Source: Gammaproteobacteria bacterium RIFCSPHIGHO2_12_FULL_63_22
GTDB lineage: Bacteria; Pseudomonadota; Gammaproteobacteria; Xanthomonadales; Xanthomonadaceae
Reading direction: 5' to 3'
NCBI GenBank assembly: GCA_001801685.1
Contig: MGYJ01000099.1
Coordinates: forward strand, 1-51,583
Length of the DNA: 51,583 bases
Below the pieces are notes generated by a model that did no database searches, had not been told where the DNA came from, and saw only the letters and a list, made by a program, of their open reading frames with translations. Numbering within the stretch: position 1 is the first letter of the stretch; each line of letters starts with the position of its first letter. The position numbers and the translations under genes were made by a program. Below, piece after piece: positions 11,574-27,493 of the stretch.

Positions 11574-13692
<2,119 letters not shown>

Positions 13693-15138: not shown

Positions 15139-15951
15139 TTACCTGGCGACGGGAGCCGCCGCGGCCGGCACTGCCGGTGCTGCCGGTTGGACGGCCCGCG
15201 GGTCCGCAGCTTTCGCGCCTTGTTGTTCCGCGGCGACTGCTTCGCCGGCCGGTTGAATTCCGAACAACGCACTCGCCGGGCTAGTCTCTGGCAGAACGTA
15301 GACGATGCCTTTGGTCCTGGTGAAGGCGGGGCTGACGATCTTCGAGTAGAACTCGACCGGAACATTGATACAGCCGAAAGAGATGCGATTGTCTTGCGGC
15401 GAGGGGCTCTTTAGGCGCTCGGCGCGTCGTTCTTTCGGCGTGCCCTTGACCACTGCATGCAGCGAAAGCGATGCGTCGTAGTCGAGGACCAGCAGTTCCT
15501 TGCCATGCGAGTCGATCGCGAGTCTCGACACGAAGCGACCCGCGGGCGTAATGCGAACCTGCGGCGGCATCGCCGACATCGGCGCGTCGTTGGGCGCAAG
15601 CATGCGATCGCCGCGCGCCATGCCGAGCAGCGCAGGCGTCGCGCCCAGGAGCTGGCCGGCCGGACTGAAAACGAGTACCTGGGCGTTGACCTTGTCGATC
15701 AGCAGGAACGGCATGCGGGCGTTGTCGCCGGAGTTGACGACCCAGCGCGCGACGCGCTTCACTTCTTCCGAGGCCGACTGCAACAAATCGACCGGGGCCG
15801 ATTGCGGTGCCGTTGCCGGTTGCAGCGACGTTGCCTGGTTGATTGGCAGCGCAGCTTCTGGAGCTTCCGGTTGGGCGTGAACGGCCGTTGCAGTGCACGA
15901 AAACAGCAGGCCGAAGATGATCGTCCGAGTTGGAATTTGCCTCTGATTCAT
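15139..15951 (-). CDS. Exported L,D-transpeptidase (YkuD-like) domain protein
   Basis: Periplasmic protein of 270 residues with a signal peptide (1-26, cleavage after VHA-Q). It resembles YkuD L,D-transpeptidases, which cross-link peptidoglycan or attach lipoproteins to it. The core shows GRFVSRLAIDSHGKELLVLDY, then H165 and the candidate catalytic C194 in SFGCINVP. Two departures from the classical HxxxxxxxxxxxxxxSHGC pattern are visible: the His before Gly is Phe (F192), and the gap from H165 to S191 is about 25 residues, longer than usual. The C-terminal 35 residues are Ala/Pro-rich and low complexity. It is a single gene in the convergent space after the OmpA-like gene. Family likely; activity less sure. 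Confidence 0.75.
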   Translation of the reverse strand: MNQRQIPTRTIIFGLLFSCTATAVHAQPEAPEAALPINQATSLQPATAPQSAPVDLLQSASEEVKRVARWVVNSGDNARMPFLLIDKVNAQVLVFSPAGQLLGATPALLGMARGDRMLAPNDAPMSAMPPQVRITPAGRFVSRLAIDSHGKELLVLDYDASLSLHAVVKGTPKERRAERLKSPSPQDNRISFGCINVPVEFYSKIVSPAFTRTKGIVYVLPETSPASALFGIQPAGEAVAAEQQGAKAADPRAVQPAAPAVPAAAAPVAR

Positions 15952-16103: not shown

Positions 16104-17135
16104 TCAGGCCTTGCTGAACCGGTAGTGGGCAACCAGCCATTCGCGCCCGCCGTCGTAGCCGAACAGTTCGGCGCAGGACATCCAGAACATTCGCCAGCGT
16201 TGGTGCCAGCGCGCGGCCTCTTCCGGCCCGTAGGCTGCGCCAAGCACAGCCATTACTTCGTCGCGGTTGGCGTCCTGGTTGGCAAGCCAATGGTCGGATG
16301 TCTTCTGGTAGTGCGTGCCAGGCAGCAACCAGCGTTGCTCGATCCGTAGCTGACGCTGGAAATGCAGCAATGTATCGGCCGCAGGCATCAGCCCGCCAGT
16401 GAAAAAGTACCGGCCCATCCAGTTGTCGTCGCCCGTCGTCTCGAACGGATACATCAGGTTGCGATGGCAGAAGATGTGCACGAACAGCTGCCCACCCGGC
16501 CGCAGCCACGAGGCGATCCTGCCGAGTAGCAGGTCGTAATTGCGCATGTGTTCAAACATCTCCACCGACACGCAGCGATCGAACGATGCCGACCCGAGTT
16601 CGAGGTGGTTGACGTCGCGGGTAAGCACGGTGACATTCTTCCAGCCGCGCCGGGCGCATGTCGCTTCGATGTGCGCGCGTTGCGTGGCGGAATTGGATAC
16701 TGCCGTGATCCGCGAATTCGGATATCGCTCGGCCATCCACAAGGTCAGCGAGCCCCATCCGCAGCCCAGTTCCAGGATGTCCTGTCCGTCGGCGAGCTCG
16801 GCGCGTGCACCGTACAGCGCAAGCATGGCTTCTTCTGCTTCGTCGAGGGTTTCGTTTCCCGTTTCGTAGAAACAACTGGAATACTTCAGGCGCTTGCCCA
16901 GGCAAAGCTCGAAGAAACGGGTCGGCAATTCGTAATGCTGCTCGTTTGCCGCAGCGGTTTCTATCGCGACTGCGCTATGCCGCAGCTCGTCGAGCAGGCT
17001 GCGAAATCGCGCGTCGGCGAGCGCGGCATCGTTGGCGCCTTCCGAGGCGAGCCGTTGCCTGCACAGCCGGCGGATCCCATGGCGGGTCAGCGCGTCCGGC
17101 ACCAGGCCGCGTTCTACAAGGTCGATCAGGGACAT
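16104..17135 (-). CDS. Second CFA-synthase-like SAM methyltransferase
   Basis: Class I SAM-dependent methyltransferase of 343 residues, last gene of the seven-gene lipid operon. The SAM motif is LELGCGWGS (121-129), preceded by NEQHYELPTRFFELCLG (substrate or bicarbonate pocket region in CFA synthases) and followed by SVEMFEHMRNY. It lacks the N-terminal lipid-binding domain of the CFA synthase encoded three genes upstream, and from memory it looks closer to the bacterial coclaurine N-methyltransferase-like branch. It could act on a fatty acyl chain or on an amine headgroup. Start at 17135 (MSLIDLVERG); the open frame extends further upstream but overlaps the DUF1295 gene. The gap to that gene is 14 bases, so the two are co-transcribed. 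Confidence 0.82.
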   Translation of the reverse strand: MSLIDLVERGLVPDALTRHGIRRLCRQRLASEGANDAALADARFRSLLDELRHSAVAIETAAANEQHYELPTRFFELCLGKRLKYSSCFYETGNETLDEAEEAMLALYGARAELADGQDILELGCGWGSLTLWMAERYPNSRITAVSNSATQRAHIEATCARRGWKNVTVLTRDVNHLELGSASFDRCVSVEMFEHMRNYDLLLGRIASWLRPGGQLFVHIFCHRNLMYPFETTGDDNWMGRYFFTGGLMPAADTLLHFQRQLRIEQRWLLPGTHYQKTSDHWLANQDANRDEVMAVLGAAYGPEEAARWHQRWRMFWMSCAELFGYDGGREWLVAHYRFSKA

Positions 17136-17149
17136 CGTGACTCCATGGG

Positions 17150-17929
17150 TCAGCCGCGCCGTGGCGGCCATGGGAAGAAGGCGCTGACCTCGCGCTGGTA
17201 GCGCAGGTAGTCGTCGCCGCGCGAACGCAATGCCTGCGCCTCGGTCCAGGGAATGCCGCTGACCCGGTACAGGAACAGGAACATCACGACCGGTCCGACC
17301 AGGCTCAGCCAGAACAAGTGGCCACCTATTGCCAGGAAAACGTAGGTGAACCAGTGCAGCCACTCGAAGAAATAGTTCGGATGGCGCGACCACGCCCACA
17401 ATCCGTCGCGGCAGGTCTTGCCGCGATTCGCGGGATCGGCTCGGAACCGCGCCAACTGGCGATCGGCAATCGCTTCCCCGCCGACGGACGCGATCCAGGT
17501 GAGGATCGCGATGATGGTCCAGACATGGAACTCGCGACCGGGATGGCCGGCGGCCGCGATGAAAGGCAGCGCGAACAATGCGACCACCACGGCCTGCAAC
17601 TGGAAGAACACGAAGAATCGGACCGGGCTGCCCTGCCATTGCTGGCGAAGCGCCTGGTAACGGCCGTCTTCGGGTTCATGCAGTACGCGCTGGAGAAGGT
17701 GCAGGCAGAGCCGCGTGCCCCACAGCGCCCCCAACACGGCGACCAGGCCCCGATGCAATTCCGCGCCTTCACCCAGCGTGCCAGCCATCAGCGCGGCAAT
17801 CGCCATCAGGCCGGCCCATACCACGTCGACGTAGCCGACGTTGGACACGCGCATGGAAACCACCCAGGCCGCTGCCATGGTCAGGGCGGATACCAGCCAG
17901 ATCAGTGCGAGCAGAGTCATGACGCTCAA
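17150..17929 (-). CDS. DUF1295 membrane protein (steroid 5-alpha-reductase-like fold)
   Basis: Integral membrane protein of 259 residues with about six hydrophobic segments. The C-terminal part carries DGLWAWSRHPNYFFEWLHW, a signature shared with steroid reductases and isoprenylcysteine/phospholipid methyltransferases, where it binds a nucleotide or SAM cofactor. In DUF1295 proteins the reaction is not established. Its ATG overlaps the stop of the DUF2878 gene by four bases (17926-17929), so translation is coupled. Context (desaturase, two CFA-type methyltransferases) suggests a reductive or transfer step on a membrane lipid. Confidence 0.82.
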   Translation of the reverse strand: MSVMTLLALIWLVSALTMAAAWVVSMRVSNVGYVDVVWAGLMAIAALMAGTLGEGAELHRGLVAVLGALWGTRLCLHLLQRVLHEPEDGRYQALRQQWQGSPVRFFVFFQLQAVVVALFALPFIAAAGHPGREFHVWTIIAILTWIASVGGEAIADRQLARFRADPANRGKTCRDGLWAWSRHPNYFFEWLHWFTYVFLAIGGHLFWLSLVGPVVMFLFLYRVSGIPWTEAQALRSRGDDYLRYQREVSAFFPWPPRRG

Positions 17930-18447
17930 GTTTGCGCTTCCACGAGCTGGGTGTGCCGGTCAAGGGCAAACAACAGGGGCAACAGGATGGCCCAGCAGAG
18001 GCCTACGACCACCAGGGTCGTGACCGCGGGCTGCGCAAAGTCAATGACGCCGAAGGCCCTGGAAGCGCCCCAGTAGGCCAGGGGGCCACCTGCCAGGCCG
18101 AGCAGGGCGGACAGTGCGCGGTGCCGACGCAGGAAGGCGAGCGAGTGGTTGAGCGTAAAGGCGAACGCCAGCCAGATGGCGGCAATCCAGACCGGGGCCA
18201 GGAATTGCGACGGTCCGGCCGGCGTGTAGGAGATCCAGCCCGAGGCGACCAGGCCGCTGTCGACCACGAAGCCGAGTGGCAACACGATCGCGAGCGTGCG
18301 CAAGTCGGCGGCGGGCCGGCCGGCGAGCGCCAGAGTTGCGATCGCGAAGACCAGCGAAGCGATCACGCCGGGCCAGGCCAGCCCCGAGGCTGCCCCACCC
18401 ACGCAGGCGAACCAGACAGCCTGGTAACCGAGCACGTTGGCCAGCAT
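17926..18447 (-). CDS. DUF2878 membrane protein
   Basis: Small polytopic membrane protein of 173 residues with about five hydrophobic helices and few charged residues outside loops. The family (DUF2878) has no assigned function but recurs beside CFA-synthase and DUF1365 genes in proteobacteria. Start taken at ATG 18447 (MLANVLGYQAVW), 24 bases after the CFA-synthase stop. The open frame continues upstream into the CFA gene, without family-like sequence. It could be a scaffold or transporter for the lipid-modifying enzymes; this is inference from position only. Confidence 0.75.
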   Translation of the reverse strand: MLANVLGYQAVWFACVGGAASGLAWPGVIASLVFAIATLALAGRPAADLRTLAIVLPLGFVVDSGLVASGWISYTPAGPSQFLAPVWIAAIWLAFAFTLNHSLAFLRRHRALSALLGLAGGPLAYWGASRAFGVIDFAQPAVTTLVVVGLCWAILLPLLFALDRHTQLVEAQT

Positions 18448-18470
18448 TGGCAATGCAGGACGCAAGACCG

Positions 18471-19742
18471 TCAAAGGCCCGGCAGGTACTGGTCGCGGCG
18501 ATTCCCGCCGCGGGCGAACAATAGTTGCACGTCGCTGATGGAGCGCTCCAGGAATCCGCCTTCGCAATAGCACAGGTAGAACTCCCACATGCGGATGAAT
18601 CGCTCGTCATAGCCCTGGCTGCGAACCCGGTCGAGCTTCGCCATGAATCGCGAACGCCAGTGGTTGAGCGTGGTGGCGTAGCTGTCGCCGAAGTCCTCGA
18701 GGTTGACCAGGCGCAGCTTGCCCGCGCGCGCAGCGGCATCGACCATCGCGCTGACGCAGGGGATGAAGCTTCCCGGAAACACGTGGCGCTTGATGAAATC
18801 GACGGAGTGCAGCGCCTGGTGGTAGCGGTCATCCTCGATGGTGATCGCCTGGACCAGCGCCATGCCGTCGGGTCGGAGCAAGCTGGCGCATTTCTCGAAA
18901 TAGGTGTCGAGGTACTGATGGCCGATGGCTTCGATCATCTCGATTGAAACCAGCTTGTCGTACTCTCCCTGCAGGTCGCGATAGTCCTCCATCAGGACGG
19001 TGACGCGATCGCCCAGTCCCGCTTCCTGTATCCGCGTGCTTGCAAGGGCGTGTTGTTCGCGGGAAATGGTCGTGGTCGTGACGCGGCAGCCGAACTTTTG
19101 TGCCGCATGCAGGGCCATGCCGCCCCAGCCCGTGCCGATCTCGACCAGATGGTCGTCGGGATGCAGGTCCAGCTTCTGGCAAATCCGGTCGAGCTTGCGT
19201 TGCGAAGCCTGCTCTAGCGTATCGCCCGGCGCGAACATGGCCGATGAGTACATCATGCTCGAGTCGAGGAACAGGCTGAAGAATTCATTGCCCAGGTCGT
19301 AATGCGCGGAGATGTTGCGTCGGCTGCCTGATCGGGTATTCCTGCGCAGCGCGTGCCAGGCATTCATCGCCAGGCCGCCGATGCGCGCGACGCCCGTCTC
19401 CACGCCGTCCAGCAGGTCGCGGTTGCGGACGAGCAGGCGCACGAGCGCCACCAGGTCGTCGCTGTCCCAGGCGCCGTCCATGTAGGCCTCGCCCGCGCCG
19501 ACCGACCCATTGCTCGCAACCTGCCGGTAAAAATCCGGGTGCTGGACCCGCAGGCTAACCCGCAGTGCATCGGGCGTGCTGGCGTCGCCCAGCAAGACGT
19601 CGCCGGCCGGGTCCTGGATCAGTAGCTGGCCGCCGCGCAACCGGGACAGCCGGGCATGCAGTTGTCCGCGAAGGAACCGGTCTATGCCGCCCATCGCCTG
19701 GCTTGTGGCGCGGCCGTCCAGGGATTCAGCGGGACTGCTCAT
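18471..19742 (-). CDS. cfa: Cyclopropane-fatty-acyl-phospholipid synthase
   Basis: Transfers a methylene from SAM to the cis double bond of membrane phospholipid acyl chains, giving cyclopropane rings that harden the membrane against stress. 423 residues. The N-terminal domain (about 1-140) is the acyl-lipid-binding part. HYDLGNEFFSLFLD (148-160) and YSSAMF contribute the bicarbonate and substrate pocket. The SAM motif is VEIGTGWGG (200-208), then SIEMIEAIG, and near the C-terminus FYLCYCEGGF. The stop of the upstream DUF1365 gene overlaps its start by 17 bases. The desaturase at the head of the same operon could supply its unsaturated substrate. Confidence 0.92.
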   Translation of the reverse strand: MSSPAESLDGRATSQAMGGIDRFLRGQLHARLSRLRGGQLLIQDPAGDVLLGDASTPDALRVSLRVQHPDFYRQVASNGSVGAGEAYMDGAWDSDDLVALVRLLVRNRDLLDGVETGVARIGGLAMNAWHALRRNTRSGSRRNISAHYDLGNEFFSLFLDSSMMYSSAMFAPGDTLEQASQRKLDRICQKLDLHPDDHLVEIGTGWGGMALHAAQKFGCRVTTTTISREQHALASTRIQEAGLGDRVTVLMEDYRDLQGEYDKLVSIEMIEAIGHQYLDTYFEKCASLLRPDGMALVQAITIEDDRYHQALHSVDFIKRHVFPGSFIPCVSAMVDAAARAGKLRLVNLEDFGDSYATTLNHWRSRFMAKLDRVRSQGYDERFIRMWEFYLCYCEGGFLERSISDVQLLFARGGNRRDQYLPGL

Positions 19743-20523
19743 CAGGACTCCTGGTCATTTCATTCGAATCGGGGTGGGCGTGGAACGGAATCCGCTTGAG
19801 CCACAGTCGAGCGGCTTGCCAGTAGATCGCCACGGCCACTTTCGCGGTGAGCCATGGATACCGCGCCAGGCATGAAGCCAGCGTGTTCGCGTTGAACGGG
19901 CGACGGCGCATCACCAGCGTCGCGTCGAATTCGTGGTGGGTCCCATCGCTGACGTCCATGTGCACGTGAAGGGTTTCCCCGGGCGGCGCCAGGCTCCAGT
20001 GGTAGCGCCGCGCCATCGGAATGAAGGGCGACACGTGGAATCGCTTGTCGAAGTCCCAGTGCATCGCGCGGCCATGCATCTGCGCGGCACTGGCGGGCAA
20101 CAGATAAGCGTGCCGCTCGCCCCAGGGCGTGTTGGTGATTTCGGCCAATACCCAATCGAGCGTCTCGCCGTCTTCCAGGAAGCCGTAATAGAAACTGACG
20201 GGATTCATCAGCACGCCGAAATAGCGACCGTGCGTGAGCAGGCGGATCGGACCGAGCGGACGCATCCCGGTCTGGGCATGGACGTGGTCGCGCACGGCGG
20301 TATCGAGCGGAACCGTGGGGTCGCCAAAGTAGTCCGACCGGCGAACCTGCGCCACGTTGCGCCGATCGAAGGACCACAGCCAACGCTTTTCGAAGAGTAG
20401 CGGAAGTTCTTCCAGGTCCAGGTATAGCTGGAACATGCGGTAGCGGAATGAGTGCGCACGCGGCGACGACCGACGGTGGCGCACCCATCCTTCGTAGATG
20501 AAGCTGGCCCTGGCGGCTGTCAC
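19726..20523 (-). CDS. DUF1365 family protein
   Basis: Soluble or peripheral protein of 265 residues; function unknown for the family, which is nearly always next to the FAD oxidoreductase and CFA synthase. Visible family features are the N-terminal YEGWVRHRR, then HSFRYRMFQLYLDLEELP, MNPVSFYYGFLEDG, and the His-rich MHWDFDKRFHVSPF. I read a GTG start at 20523 that overlaps the TGA of the upstream oxidoreductase gene (GTGA); the frame stays open upstream, but only as antisense-like sequence. The coupling suggests a fixed ratio with the oxidoreductase. Confidence 0.82.
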   Translation of the reverse strand: MTAARASFIYEGWVRHRRSSPRAHSFRYRMFQLYLDLEELPLLFEKRWLWSFDRRNVAQVRRSDYFGDPTVPLDTAVRDHVHAQTGMRPLGPIRLLTHGRYFGVLMNPVSFYYGFLEDGETLDWVLAEITNTPWGERHAYLLPASAAQMHGRAMHWDFDKRFHVSPFIPMARRYHWSLAPPGETLHVHMDVSDGTHHEFDATLVMRRRPFNANTLASCLARYPWLTAKVAVAIYWQAARLWLKRIPFHAHPDSNEMTRSPDEQSR

Positions 20524-21761
20524 CAGGATGCACCCAGGGCGCGAGCCACGTCCACGCCGCTGCGCAAGCCGTCCTCGTGGAATCCGAAACCCCAGTACGC
20601 GCCCGCGAACCAGGTGCGCCGGACACCATTGATGTCGCCGCGCCGGGCCTGCGCGGCGACGCTTGCATGGTCGTAGACCGGATGCCGGTAGTTCATGCGC
20701 GCGAGTACCTTGCCCGGATCGATGTCGTGACTGCGGTTGAGGGAAACGATGAAGGGGTCGGGCGAATCGATCGACTGCAACAGGTTCATGCAATAGCTGA
20801 CTGTGCAATTCGCCTGTGGCTCGGCAGGCACGTAGGCATTCCATGCCGCCCAGGCCGCGCGTCGCCGCGGCAACACGCGTGCATCCGTGTGCAGCATCGT
20901 ATCGTTGTCCTGGAATCGCATGGCGCCCAGTACGCTGGCTTCATCGGCACTGGCATCCGACAACAGGGCCAGGGCGTCATCCGCGTGGCAGGCGAGCACG
21001 ACCTGGTCGAAAGTTTCCTCGCCGGCCGTGGTCGCGAGCACCACGGATTCGCCATCGCGGCGAATGGCGCGCACCGCGGTGCCCAGTCGGACCTGCGTTT
21101 TCCAGGTTGATTCCAGCGCGCGAATATAGCTGGACGAACCGCCGCTGACGACACGCCAGCCGGGGCGGCCCTGCACCTGCAGCATGCGATGGTTGGCCAT
21201 GAAGCGGACCAGGTACTTCGCCGGGAAATCCAGTATTCGCCCCGAAGGCGAAGACCACAATGCACAGGCCATCGGCACCAGGTGGTCGTGCACGAACATT
21301 TTCGAATAGCCGTTGGACGACAGGTAGTCACCCAGGCTCGGACCGTCGCCAGCTTCGTCGAGCAGTGCCGGACACTCGCGGTAGAAGCGCAGGATTTCCC
21401 CGACCATGCGCAGGAAGCGCGGCGACAACAGGTTGCTGCGCTGGCAGAACATCGCATTGAGGTTGGTGGCGTTGTACTCCAGCCCGCTGGCGCCATCGTG
21501 TACCGAAAAACCCATGGTCGTCGGTTGGGATTCCACGCCCAACTCGTCGAACATGCGGGTCAGCAGCGGGTAATTTTCCGGGTTGAAGACAATGAACCCG
21601 GTGTCGATCGAATATTCCTTGCCCTGTTGAGCCACGCGATGCGTGTGCGTGTGCCCGCCCAGCCGATCCTGGCCTTCGAACAGCACGACTTCGTGGTGGC
21701 GAGACAACAACCAGGCCGCACCCAGGCCGGCGATGCCACTGCCCACGATCGCGATCTTCAT
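20520..21761 (-). CDS. FAD-dependent amine-oxidase-like oxidoreductase (COG2907 type)
   Basis: Flavoprotein of 413 residues with an N-terminal FAD-binding motif GSGIAGLG (7-14), then LFEGQDRLGGH for the ribose, and a C-terminal WFAGAYWGFGFHEDG flavin-contact block. The fold resembles phytoene desaturase and amine oxidases. The family is the regular partner of DUF1365 and CFA synthase; its reaction is not known to me, though an oxidation or desaturation of a methylated acyl chain is plausible. The ATG at 21761 overlaps the desaturase stop by four bases (ATGA). No signal peptide. Confidence 0.85.
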   Translation of the reverse strand: MKIAIVGSGIAGLGAAWLLSRHHEVVLFEGQDRLGGHTHTHRVAQQGKEYSIDTGFIVFNPENYPLLTRMFDELGVESQPTTMGFSVHDGASGLEYNATNLNAMFCQRSNLLSPRFLRMVGEILRFYRECPALLDEAGDGPSLGDYLSSNGYSKMFVHDHLVPMACALWSSPSGRILDFPAKYLVRFMANHRMLQVQGRPGWRVVSGGSSSYIRALESTWKTQVRLGTAVRAIRRDGESVVLATTAGEETFDQVVLACHADDALALLSDASADEASVLGAMRFQDNDTMLHTDARVLPRRRAAWAAWNAYVPAEPQANCTVSYCMNLLQSIDSPDPFIVSLNRSHDIDPGKVLARMNYRHPVYDHASVAAQARRGDINGVRRTWFAGAYWGFGFHEDGLRSGVDVARALGASW

Positions 21762-22657
21762 TGTCGTTGCAGGCGCGATTCGCGCATCGAAGCCGGCATG
21801 GCCTTCAGGTCCCAGACCAGGCCGACCCAGGACATGGCCTTCAGCACGTAGTAGGTCAGGTCGTATTCCCACCACTTGAAGCCCTGTCGCGCCGAGCCGG
21901 GGAAGTGGTGGTGGTTGTTGTGCCAGCCCTCGCCAAATGTGAGCAGGGCGAGCAACCAGTTGTTGCGGCTGTCGTCGTTGGTGGCGAAACGCCGGCTTCC
22001 CCAGCGATGCGCCAGCGAGTTGATCGTGACGGTGACATGGAACAGAACGACGGTGGAGATGAAGAATCCCCAGACGAGCATTTGCGCGCCGCTCGTCTCC
22101 AGCCCTGGGAAACGCGCATCGAGCCACGCGCCGAATCCGTAAAGGCCGGCTGCGAGGATGACGGGCACGAGGATGTCGAACCGGTCCAGCAGGCGTAGTT
22201 CCGGGAATTGCGACAGGTCCTTGATGGCGTCGTGATTGGTGGCGAAGCTGCGTTCGGTCATGAACCAGCCCATGTGGCTGCGCCAGAAACCGTGCCGCGG
22301 CGAATGGATGTCGAGGTCGGTGTCGGCGTGCCGATGATGGTGGCGGTGGTGCGCCGCCCACCATAGCGGTCCGCGTTGCACGCTGGCGGCGCCGAGCACG
22401 GCGAATCCGAATTGCATCGCGCGCGAAGTGCGGAATGCCTTGTGCGAGAAGTAACGATGATAGAAGCCGGTGATGGCGAACATGCGTGCTGCATAAAGCG
22501 CCGCGGCAACTGCTACGGCCGCCCAGGAAACGCCGACCCAGATGACGCCGAGGCAGGCCAGGTGCAGGCCGACGAATGGAAAGACGCGTAGCCAGTCGAT
22601 GCGATCGGGCGCGGATGGCTCCACGACTGCCGCGGAGGTGTCGAACCAACGCAGCAT
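21758..22657 (-). CDS. Membrane acyl-CoA desaturase (delta-9-type)
   Basis: Di-iron membrane enzyme that inserts a cis double bond into acyl chains using O2. From 22657 it has 299 residues. The three His boxes are clear: HRYFSH (67-72), HHRHH (103-107 region) and HNNHH (246-250). Hydrophobic helices occur in two pairs, as in stearoyl-CoA desaturases. The start is uncertain: ATG codons at 22714 and 22657 and a TTG at 22723 are in frame, and none has a clear Shine-Dalgarno; I prefer 22657 because codon use becomes typical there. It heads the lipid operon, is coupled to the FAD oxidoreductase by ATGA, and is divergent from the pseudouridine synthase gene. Confidence 0.88.
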   Translation of the reverse strand: MLRWFDTSAAVVEPSAPDRIDWLRVFPFVGLHLACLGVIWVGVSWAAVAVAAALYAARMFAITGFYHRYFSHKAFRTSRAMQFGFAVLGAASVQRGPLWWAAHHRHHHRHADTDLDIHSPRHGFWRSHMGWFMTERSFATNHDAIKDLSQFPELRLLDRFDILVPVILAAGLYGFGAWLDARFPGLETSGAQMLVWGFFISTVVLFHVTVTINSLAHRWGSRRFATNDDSRNNWLLALLTFGEGWHNNHHHFPGSARQGFKWWEYDLTYYVLKAMSWVGLVWDLKAMPASMRESRLQRQ

Positions 22658-22813
22658 CGCCGCCACGGGGCGGAAAAAGCGCGAGGAACTTCGATTCTGG
22701 CAAGGGCTTGGCATGGGCGGCAATGGTCGCGGCGAAACGGTGATGGGAGGGTGAACCGGTTCTGCGGCGCCCGGACGCTGGTCTTAATCCTTACGCTGCG
22801 ACATGCTTGGCGG

Positions 22814-23593
22814 ATGCAATCGAAGTTCGTTTCGCGCCCCAAGACACTGCCTCCGCGGCACGGCCTTGCGCGGGTGATTTCCAAGCTGGGAATCGGCTCG
22901 CGATCGCAAGCGGCGGCCTGGATCGCTGACGGCCGCGTGCGTGTCAACGGTCGCCTGGTGACCGACGCGGAATTCCCGGTGCGCCAGGGCATCGACCGGA
23001 TCGAGATCGAGGGCAGCCAAGCCGCGCGCGGTGAACGGATCGTGTTGATGCTCAACAAGCCGCGTGGGTTGGTCACTACGCGCGCGGACGAGAAAGGACG
23101 CGATACCGTCTATTCCTGCCTGGATGGCGCCGACTTCGGATGGCTCGCCCCGGTCGGTCGGCTGGACAAGGCGAGCGAGGGGCTCCTGTTGTTCAGCAAC
23201 GACCCGGAATGGGCTGCGGCAATCACCTCGCCCGATTCAGGCCCGGAGAAGATCTATCACGTACAGGTGGACCGGATACCGGAGGCGAGCCTGCTCGATG
23301 CCCTGGTGGCAGGCGTGGAGGCGGACGGCGAGCGACTCTCGGCCCGTTCCGCAACCTTGCTGCGACAGGGCGAGCGAAATTCATGGCTGGAAATCGTGCT
23401 GGACGAGGGCAGGAACCGGCAGATCCGGCGCCTGTTGCAGGCCTTCGACGTGCGCGTGCTGCGACTACTGCGGATCGGCATCGGTCCGCTCCGGTTGGGA
23501 AAGCTTGCCAAGGGCGCCTGGCGCCGATTGCAGCCCGACGAAATCGAGTCGCTGCCGGGGCCGGGCGCTCAGCAGGCTTTGCCTAGGCCTTGA
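22814..23593 (+). CDS. rRNA pseudouridine synthase of the RsuA/RluB family
   Basis: Converts a specific uridine of rRNA to pseudouridine. 259 residues from ATG 22814. N-terminal S4 RNA-binding domain ([29 protein letters not shown], about 19-70), then the catalytic region with D118 in [14 protein letters not shown] and the C-terminal [10 protein letters not shown] motif. This could be RluB or RluE/RluF-like; the target base cannot be assigned by eye. The stop overlaps the convergent kbl gene by 11 bases. The 156 bases between its start and the desaturase gene must carry both promoters. Confidence 0.88.
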
Positions 23594-26968: not shown

Positions 26969-27493
26969 TCAGGGAGCAGCCTTCAGGTTGTCGAGCATCG
27001 GCGACTGCGGACGCTGGATCACCAGGAAGCCGTGGTCGGCAGAGGCGTGGCAGTCCGTGCAAGCCTTCGATACTTCGTCGTAGGCCTTGTCGAAGGCCGG
27101 GCCGTCCTGCGTGTCGATGGCGGCCTGCATCTGCTTGAGCGCAGGATCCATGAAGGTGGGCAGCACTTCTGCCAGTCGATTCGGCTGCAAGGCGGCATGG
27201 TCGCCGTTGAGCTCGACCACGCCATTCAGGGACTCGCGCAGTTCGGCCAATTCGAATTGCGTCAGCATCCAGTTGCGGGCGGCACCCGGTTGCCAGAGCC
27301 GCGCGTGGCGAATCTGCAGTTCGAGCATCTGCTGGCCCAGTTCGGGCGCAGCGGGGACGGCGGCTACAGCCGCCGAGGCCGGCGCCGCCTTCAGGCTGGC
27401 TACCTGGGCTTTGAGATCGGCGATTTCTGCGCTTTGGTCGGTGTTGCCGCAGGCGGCGAGAAGCAGGAGCGGCAACAGGAGGAACTGGCGCAT
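26969..27493 (-). CDS. Lipoprotein with one c-type heme site
   Basis: Not recognised as a named family. 174 residues: signal peptide with lipobox LLLAAC (C15), a short heptad-like stretch (SAEIADLKAQVASLK, 21-35), an Ala/Pro linker, a helical domain, then CTDCH (145-149), the covalent heme c attachment motif. A single-heme, membrane-anchored electron carrier or sensor is likely. The distal ligand cannot be read. The gene lies 63 bases upstream of tdh on the same strand, so they may share a transcript, though no link to threonine metabolism is known to me. Confidence 0.72.
   Translation of the reverse strand: MRQFLLLPLLLLAACGNTDQSAEIADLKAQVASLKAAPASAAVAAVPAAPELGQQMLELQIRHARLWQPGAARNWMLTQFELAELRESLNGVVELNGDHAALQPNRLAEVLPTFMDPALKQMQAAIDTQDGPAFDKAYDEVSKACTDCHASADHGFLVIQRPQSPMLDNLKAAP

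Follow-up and report, generated by a model that had tools for sequence, protein, structure and literature searches.

What would be made by an operon in which a desaturase and a flavin adenine dinucleotide (FAD) enzyme stand beside two proteins resembling cyclopropane fatty acid (CFA) synthases and three DUF families? The question is raised by seven minus-strand genes at 22714-16104 of a 51,583-nucleotide contig (MGYJ01000099.1, assembly GCA_001801685.1) from Gammaproteobacteria bacterium RIFCSPHIGHO2_12_FULL_63_22, the whole of which we call the window. An initial annotation, made from the letters alone, had proposed a single lipid-modification unit making an unusual acyl chain and not only a cyclopropane, and had left the pathway open. 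The unit and the unusual chain both held up, but the reserve over the product was too cautious, as furan fatty acids can be named. Furan fatty acids are membrane lipids thought to protect against reactive oxygen made by light. We consider it likely that the operon encodes the whole route to dimethyl furan fatty acids, built on membrane phospholipids.

The seven-gene unit and its proposed route

UfaM, UfaD (the FAD enzyme) and UfaO (DUF1365) act one after another to turn cis-vaccenate into a monomethyl furan, which FufM (RPA0924) takes on to the dimethyl furan in Rhodopseudomonas palustris (Lemke et al. 2020, PMC7380195; this and the other PMC articles cited below are drawn on in part). The earlier statement that at least three enzymes of the unit have no assigned reaction was thus out of date, homologues of UfaD, UfaO and FufM having been given reactions in 2020 (PMC7380195). 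In the route that we propose, the desaturase (21758..22714, 318 aa, stearoyl-CoA desaturase type; PF00487, 92.5 bits) would make, or add to the supply of, cis-monounsaturated acyl chains; the UfaM-type S-adenosylmethionine (SAM)-dependent methylase (18471..19742, 423 aa; CMAS in Pfam, 273.0 bits) would add a methyl group and shift the double bond; the UfaD-type FAD-dependent fatty acyl desaturase (20520..21761, 413 aa; PF01593, Amino_oxidase, 96.9 bits) would form a methyl-branched conjugated diene; the UfaO-type, DUF1365 oxygenase (19726..20523, 265 aa; PF07103, 270.9 bits) would insert oxygen from O2 and close the furan ring; and the FufM-type SAM-dependent methylase at the end (16104..17135, 343 aa; PF02353, CMAS, 132.4 bits) would add the second ring methyl. 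The remaining two products, DUF2878 (17926..18474, 182 aa from a TTG start or 173 aa from ATG 18447; PF11086, 133.5 bits) and DUF1295 (17150..17920, 256 aa; PF06966, 243.4 bits), would be a membrane helper and probably a membrane C=C reductase, respectively. The UfaM, UfaD, UfaO and FufM steps have been demonstrated for homologues (PMC7380195), and we infer the same reactions in this host from homology, active-site residues, gene order and co-occurrence.

All seven genes lie on the minus strand and all seven proteins score above their Pfam family cut-offs, in agreement with the families first named. The tight junctions described earlier were reread in the sequence and agree: an ATGA overlap joins desaturase and FAD gene (21761-21758), a GTGA overlap FAD gene and DUF1365 (20523-20520), and a 17-base overlap DUF1365 and the first methylase (19742-19726), which is separated from DUF2878 by 23 bases if that gene starts at ATG 18447 or overlaps it by 4 bases if it starts at TTG 18474; 5 bases then precede DUF1295 (ATG 17920) and 14 bases the last methylase. 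Between 15900 and 22900 neither sigma-70-type promoters (1, against 1.0 in shuffles) nor terminators (5 against 4.4) were in excess. Of 20 loci (16-20 kb each, taken from relatives in the order of the window's host by way of the last gene, which defines the sample), 16 had the seven genes in identical order, and the grouping is therefore not due to chance. That taxonomic order is probably the Xanthomonadales, as the matching arrangement in Stenotrophomonas maltophilia suggests. One of the four deviating loci lacked DUF2878 (L081), one DUF1295 (L084) and one both the desaturase and the FAD gene (L082), and in L073 the last gene was solitary; in G046 the FAD-to-DUF1295 genes sit on a separate contig. 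The idea of a single unit and of a recurrent FAD-DUF1365-CFA-DUF2878-DUF1295 grouping was right, and the counterparts of these genes in S. maltophilia go up and down together (section 3.6 and Table 1 of PMC11832516). A DUF1365 gene with one in-frame TGA was seen inside an otherwise complete cluster (L070; G006 C2:403735-404466).

FAD and DUF1365 genes lie side by side in the window, as the furan pathway requires, and of 120 UfaO-bearing loci 117 had UfaD next to UfaO on the same strand, the exceptions being L345 and L347, with UfaD on the opposite strand, and L082, where no UfaD was found. The UfaD-type protein of the window shares 45% identity with its counterpart in a cluster of Bradyrhizobium type (L179). 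Among 80 DUF1365-centred loci, one per genus out of the 152 genomes with DUF1365, a CFA-like gene was adjacent in 66 and DUF2878 was present in 15.

Co-occurrence links the last gene to this core. Of 398 genomes of the phylum, 33 carried the last gene (34 before G301, at 34% identity and E 6.7e-31, was dropped) and 152 had DUF1365 above the cut-off (153 at E 0.001); DUF1365 was present in 30 of the 33, compared with 122 of the 365 others (Fisher 7e-11, a value that overstates independence as the genomes are related). Among 61 closer relatives, with the last gene counted at ≥53% identity since weaker methyltransferase matches occur in every genome, 48 had both genes, 11 had neither, G039 had the last gene only and G053 DUF1365 only, in two pieces.

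The desaturase, proposed here to supply the first cis double bond, is of the stearoyl-CoA type: its best solved relatives are the acyl-CoA desaturases 4ymk (94.2 bits) and 4zyo (88.2 bits), and the histidine boxes are visible in the alignment. Copies at least 57% identical were found in 10 of the 398 genomes, all 10 with DUF1365 within ~4 kb. A desaturase like that of the window was near only one of the 80 DUF1365-centred loci (L297; genus g48, family f23), where it lies close to UfaD.

Two methylases and the competing products

The first methylase is probably a UfaM-clade enzyme and not a cyclopropane synthase. In a tree of CMAS proteins it grouped, with support of 0.993, with the cluster-borne Rhodopseudomonas counterpart of UfaM and with proteins of family f65, which we take to be Rhodobacteraceae; throughout, the UfaM sequences RSP2144 and RPA2569 were represented by such cluster-borne counterparts. 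At seven compared columns, which we take to be those of the active-site and bicarbonate-site residues (Cys, Glu, His, Ile, Tyr) of Escherichia coli CFA synthase, the window protein reads S-E-E-A-Q-I-Y, with Ser replacing Cys and Gln replacing His, so the CFA bicarbonate site is not found in the gene at 18471-19742. The canonical pattern, CGEHHIY, was shared by all 11 canonical CFA synthases compared, whereas E-E-A-Q-I-Y was read in 117 of 118 UfaM-type proteins (104 SEEAQIY, 11 AEEAQIY, one CEEAQIY, one GEEAQIY and one gapped). These residues separating UfaM from CFA synthase are newly reported here; on the strength of them and of the position in the tree, we rejected a CFA synthase function for this methylase.

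The last gene likewise had been labelled a second CFA-like methyltransferase; the label is better given as a plant N-methyltransferase or FufM type, which points to dimethyl furans. Its closest solved relative is coclaurine N-methyltransferase (6gkv, 264.8 bits, compared with 86.0 for the best CFA synthase), with pavine and tetrahydroprotoberberine N-methyltransferases also at the top. FufM is itself 37.87% identical to Arabidopsis LIME1 (PMC10940516), a likeness that parallels the closeness of the window protein to plant N-methyltransferases and so supports the FufM type. The published identities to UfaM are 38% for RPA3082 and 26% for RPA0924, that is FufM (PMC7380195). Genomes of Rhodopseudomonas (our genus g264; G567 includes Rhodopseudomonas sp. 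AAP120, locus L183) held three CMAS genes at E 1e-20 in G517 and G567 and two in G556 and G538. Against the trio of G517, an f65 protein of the UfaM clade was 52% (the cluster copy), 38% and 26% identical, and this protein was 52%, 39% and 24% identical to the trio of G567; two further f65 proteins of that clade gave 53%, 36-37% and 24-28%, whereas a canonical CFA protein of f65, at 39, 49 and 30% against G517, misfits the published pattern. The low-identity (26%) Rhodopseudomonas protein is the counterpart of the window's last gene, which is 49% identical to the copy in G556, and this points to a FufM-type gene; both marks of FufM, the plant N-methyltransferase type and ~26% identity to UfaM, are found by way of this counterpart. 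We propose that the last gene encodes a putative FufM-type methylase for the second ring methylation.

Three other products have to be weighed against the dimethyl furan. A pathway stopping at the monomethyl furan, with the last methylase acting elsewhere, for example on an amine head group like its plant relatives, draws on those same solved structures and on the 3 of 33 genomes with the last gene and no DUF1365 match; we think it unlikely, given that the counterpart of the gene in Rhodopseudomonas has identities matching FufM, that FufM is itself plant-like, and that the last gene and DUF1365 are present and absent together. That both CMAS proteins make cyclopropane or methyl-branched chains, the other genes adjusting redox state or saturation, agrees with the naming of both methylases as CfaS in S. 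maltophilia (PMC11832516) and with the NCBIfam CFA synthase model as top match of both window proteins, though at 286.9 and 131.3 bits, below its cut-off of 400. This explanation appears highly improbable: the signature Cys and His are replaced in the first methylase, two canonical CFA synthases are encoded elsewhere in the genome (contigs C61 and C26), and homologues of the FAD and DUF1365 proteins have published furan-forming reactions (PMC7380195). A related oxygenated chain, for instance a furan carried by an iso-branched or C16-17 chain, or a methyl-diene at which the route stalls, would be set by the position of the bond that the desaturase introduces; this enzyme's gene stands first in the unit both in the order to which the window belongs and on an Acinetobacter piscicola plasmid, and lies near UfaD in L297, a placement that suggests a substrate unneeded by the core cluster elsewhere. 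We regard this as very unlikely, and the bond position is unreadable from sequence; it is in any case a variant of the dimethyl furan pathway and not its opposite.

Several observations weigh against the dimethyl furan pathway as we propose it. FabA (303.9 bits) and a further two FA_desaturase genes are encoded elsewhere in the host, so the desaturase of the operon may be dispensable, and copies 50-54% identical to it occur in 8 other genomes, of which 4 have DUF1365 and none has it nearby. The link between the Rhodopseudomonas counterpart and RPA0924 rests on identity values and gene count. The three genomes with the last gene and no DUF1365 match (G094, G422 and G441) are of the Bradyrhizobium family, and the enzyme may act on something else. 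We take RSP1089 to be CFA-like, judging by its length and position. This third gene of the Rhodobacter sphaeroides operon is dispensable, and RPA0923 was also deleted in R. palustris, with no outcome given in the parts of the paper used (PMC7380195). A fatty-acid profile left unchanged by mutation of any gene but cfa had been named as what would speak against an unusual chain; in R. sphaeroides the ufaD and ufaO homologues already run counter to such an outcome, though deletions of RSP1087-1089 changed nothing (PMC7380195). As a separate observation, a FufM-type gene without DUF1365, as in the three Bradyrhizobium-family genomes, could reflect another substrate or decay.

DUF1295 and DUF2878

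DUF1295 accompanies the last gene closely, lying within 400 bp on the same strand in 18 of the 20 loci of the order, in 30 of the 36 from other parts of the phylum and in 57 of the 80 named loci (chiefly Rhodopseudomonas, Bradyrhizobium and their relatives; among the 23 without it, only L189 clearly has too little sequence). Its AlphaFold model, from 31 aligned sequences, reached a pLDDT of 92.2, and Foldseek placed a delta(14)-sterol reductase first (4quv, TM 0.52, E 3.2e-3) with 5-alpha reductases next, the best PDB fold matches being 4quv, 7bw1 and 7c83, none below E 0.001. The model suggests that DUF1295 is probably a membrane C=C reductase. Both the pairing of FufM with DUF1295 and this sterol-reductase-like model are newly reported, and no paper in the collection searched joined DUF1295, a methyltransferase and an operon. 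DUF2878, for which a single-sequence model was poor (pLDDT 54.2), is probably a small helical protein of the membrane.

Could these two be the dispensable RSP1088 and RSP1087 of R. sphaeroides? We thought this unlikely, given the gene content of two loci: L357 (f65) has DUF3833 and a short-chain dehydrogenase after the CFA-like gene, with lengths near those of RSP1088 and RSP1087, and L341 has a chalcone isomerase-like gene in that place. Because L357 holds DUF3833 and the dehydrogenase there, it is probable that the R. sphaeroides deletions did not include DUF2878 and DUF1295. A furan ring opened by singlet oxygen leaves an ene-dione. As a long shot, the operon might form a self-contained furan antioxidant cycle, in which dimethyl furans are made from its own double bond and the FufM-linked DUF1295 reduces the ene-dione, clearing the reactive product from the membrane.

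Upstream motifs and related operons

Two alternative motifs, newly reported here, occur upstream of the operon in the window and its relatives: an ECF (extracytoplasmic function)-type promoter where ChrR is nearby, and a direct repeat both in the window and in other relatives. The window copy of this 11-bp direct repeat, TTCACN7TCACCG (22738..22755, minus strand; 1 match in the window against 0.02 expected), is a putative operator, and a weak GCATCC-N16-CGTA (22792..22817, minus strand), overlapping the likely ATG of a divergent pseudouridine synthase gene, resembles a sigmaE/ChrR-type promoter, for which the elements are TGATCC ... CGTA (PMC4336711). The repeat preceded the desaturase in 11 of 19 sequences from the order and in 0 of 3 ChrR loci, and G[ACG]ATCC-N15-17-CGTA in 9 of the 19: L071, L080 and L081 (ChrR in the locus), L077 (ChrR elsewhere in the genome), L078 (from G047, without a ChrR match), L065, L069, L074 and the window; L072, L079 and L084 had neither. 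Both patterns had been picked out by eye in this very set, so that the shuffle expectations (0.002 and 0.029 of 19), obtained by permuting two-base blocks and not true dinucleotides, are not independent of them. Across 378 loci the repeat was found in 14, at the operon upstream region in 11 (including the window copy, L374), at one other place in L047 and L090, and at another in L171.

ChrR was found in 62 of 119 UfaD loci by sequence comparison, and above the cut-off in 4 of the 61 relatives, with a split copy in G003; in the 99 contigs of the window genome no match reached the cut-off (best 36.6 bits against 124.5). We read this as a possible switch of control from sigmaE-ChrR to another regulator. 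The suggestion that relatives of the unit are under ECF sigma or light control proved right. In L170, of the Bradyrhizobium family, a Pfam-confirmed ECF sigma and ChrR lie between UfaD and the DUF1295-methylase pair, and ufaM is light-induced in Pseudomonas mendocina (PMC9758184). In L170 (6047-8478), the ECF sigma, ChrR and an alpha/beta hydrolase immediately precede DUF1295 and the FufM-type gene, and the hydrolase may belong to the pathway.

In P. mendocina the FAD oxidoreductase and ufaM share one region, with ufaM and its neighbours light-induced; it differs in that its class II LitR binds TGTACA-N12-TGTACA (PMC9758184), which was not found by eye at 22690-22830 in the window (no search for LitR genes was made). 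Control through this Pseudomonas consensus was rejected, the motif being missing from that stretch.

As in the window, UfaD and UfaO are clustered in R. sphaeroides (RSP1091-1087, with ufaM) and R. palustris (RPA2571-2569, with fufM), and R. palustris has a UfaM homologue in its cluster and a FufM counterpart (RPA0924) besides (PMC7380195). In contrast to both, the window joins all steps, including FufM and the desaturase, in one operon. The closest parallel is smlt2375-smlt2367 of S. maltophilia, with a desaturase, FAD oxidoreductase, cytosolic hypothetical protein, CfaS2, two inner-membrane hypothetical proteins and CfaS1 in the order of the window; it differs in having sigmaEc-ChrR next door and two extra genes (2375 and the lipocalin 2367) (PMC11832516). 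From order and location, its hypothetical proteins would be DUF1365, DUF2878 and DUF1295. In a chrR mutant, expression of this cluster increased 197-507 fold (Table 1; the transcriptome was run once); the cluster is the strongest sigmaEc-ChrR target and contributes to the raised MD tolerance of that mutant (PMC11832516). Its methylases are named CFA synthases, and 'furan' has 0 occurrences in PMC11832516. An operon that seems to match this one is thus already in print, and the assignment of a furan product to it is new: a literature search by titles and openings of abstracts, with most subscription journals outside it, did not find a desaturase-headed operon of this kind assigned to furan fatty acids, and matches for furan fatty acid with Xanthomonas were seemingly unrelated.

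Similar gene sets occur on plasmids. Plasmid pYH12207-1 of A. piscicola (L376, 2900-9026) carries an acyl-CoA desaturase, FAD, DUF1365, CFA, DUF1295 and methyltransferase genes in a row; it differs from the window in that no DUF2878 is listed in its incomplete gene table, and in being mobilizable with a lipocalin and a photolyase nearby. Matches to the last gene at ~56-57% identity were found on six more Acinetobacter plasmids, among the matches listed. A Cupriavidus sp. plasmid (L377, 1956-12018) has photolyase, CFA-like, DUF1295, methylase, DUF2878, lipocalin, chalcone isomerase-like, DUF1365 and FAD genes together.

If the proposed pathway is correct, genes named as cyclopropane synthases, including the two in the most induced sigmaEc-ChrR cluster of S. 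maltophilia, would be furan fatty acid enzymes, and the residue signature allows such methylases to be re-labelled. A whole dimethyl route in one unit would ease production of these lipids, and the orphan families DUF1295 and DUF2878 would gain a pathway context for testing.

Around the operon, a Pfam search of the window at 15139-15951 and 26969-27493 matched no family. Downstream on the same strand (11574-13676) lies a gene for a 700-aa NADH:flavin oxidoreductase (Oxidored_FMN, 255.9 bits) fused to an FAD/NAD-binding part.

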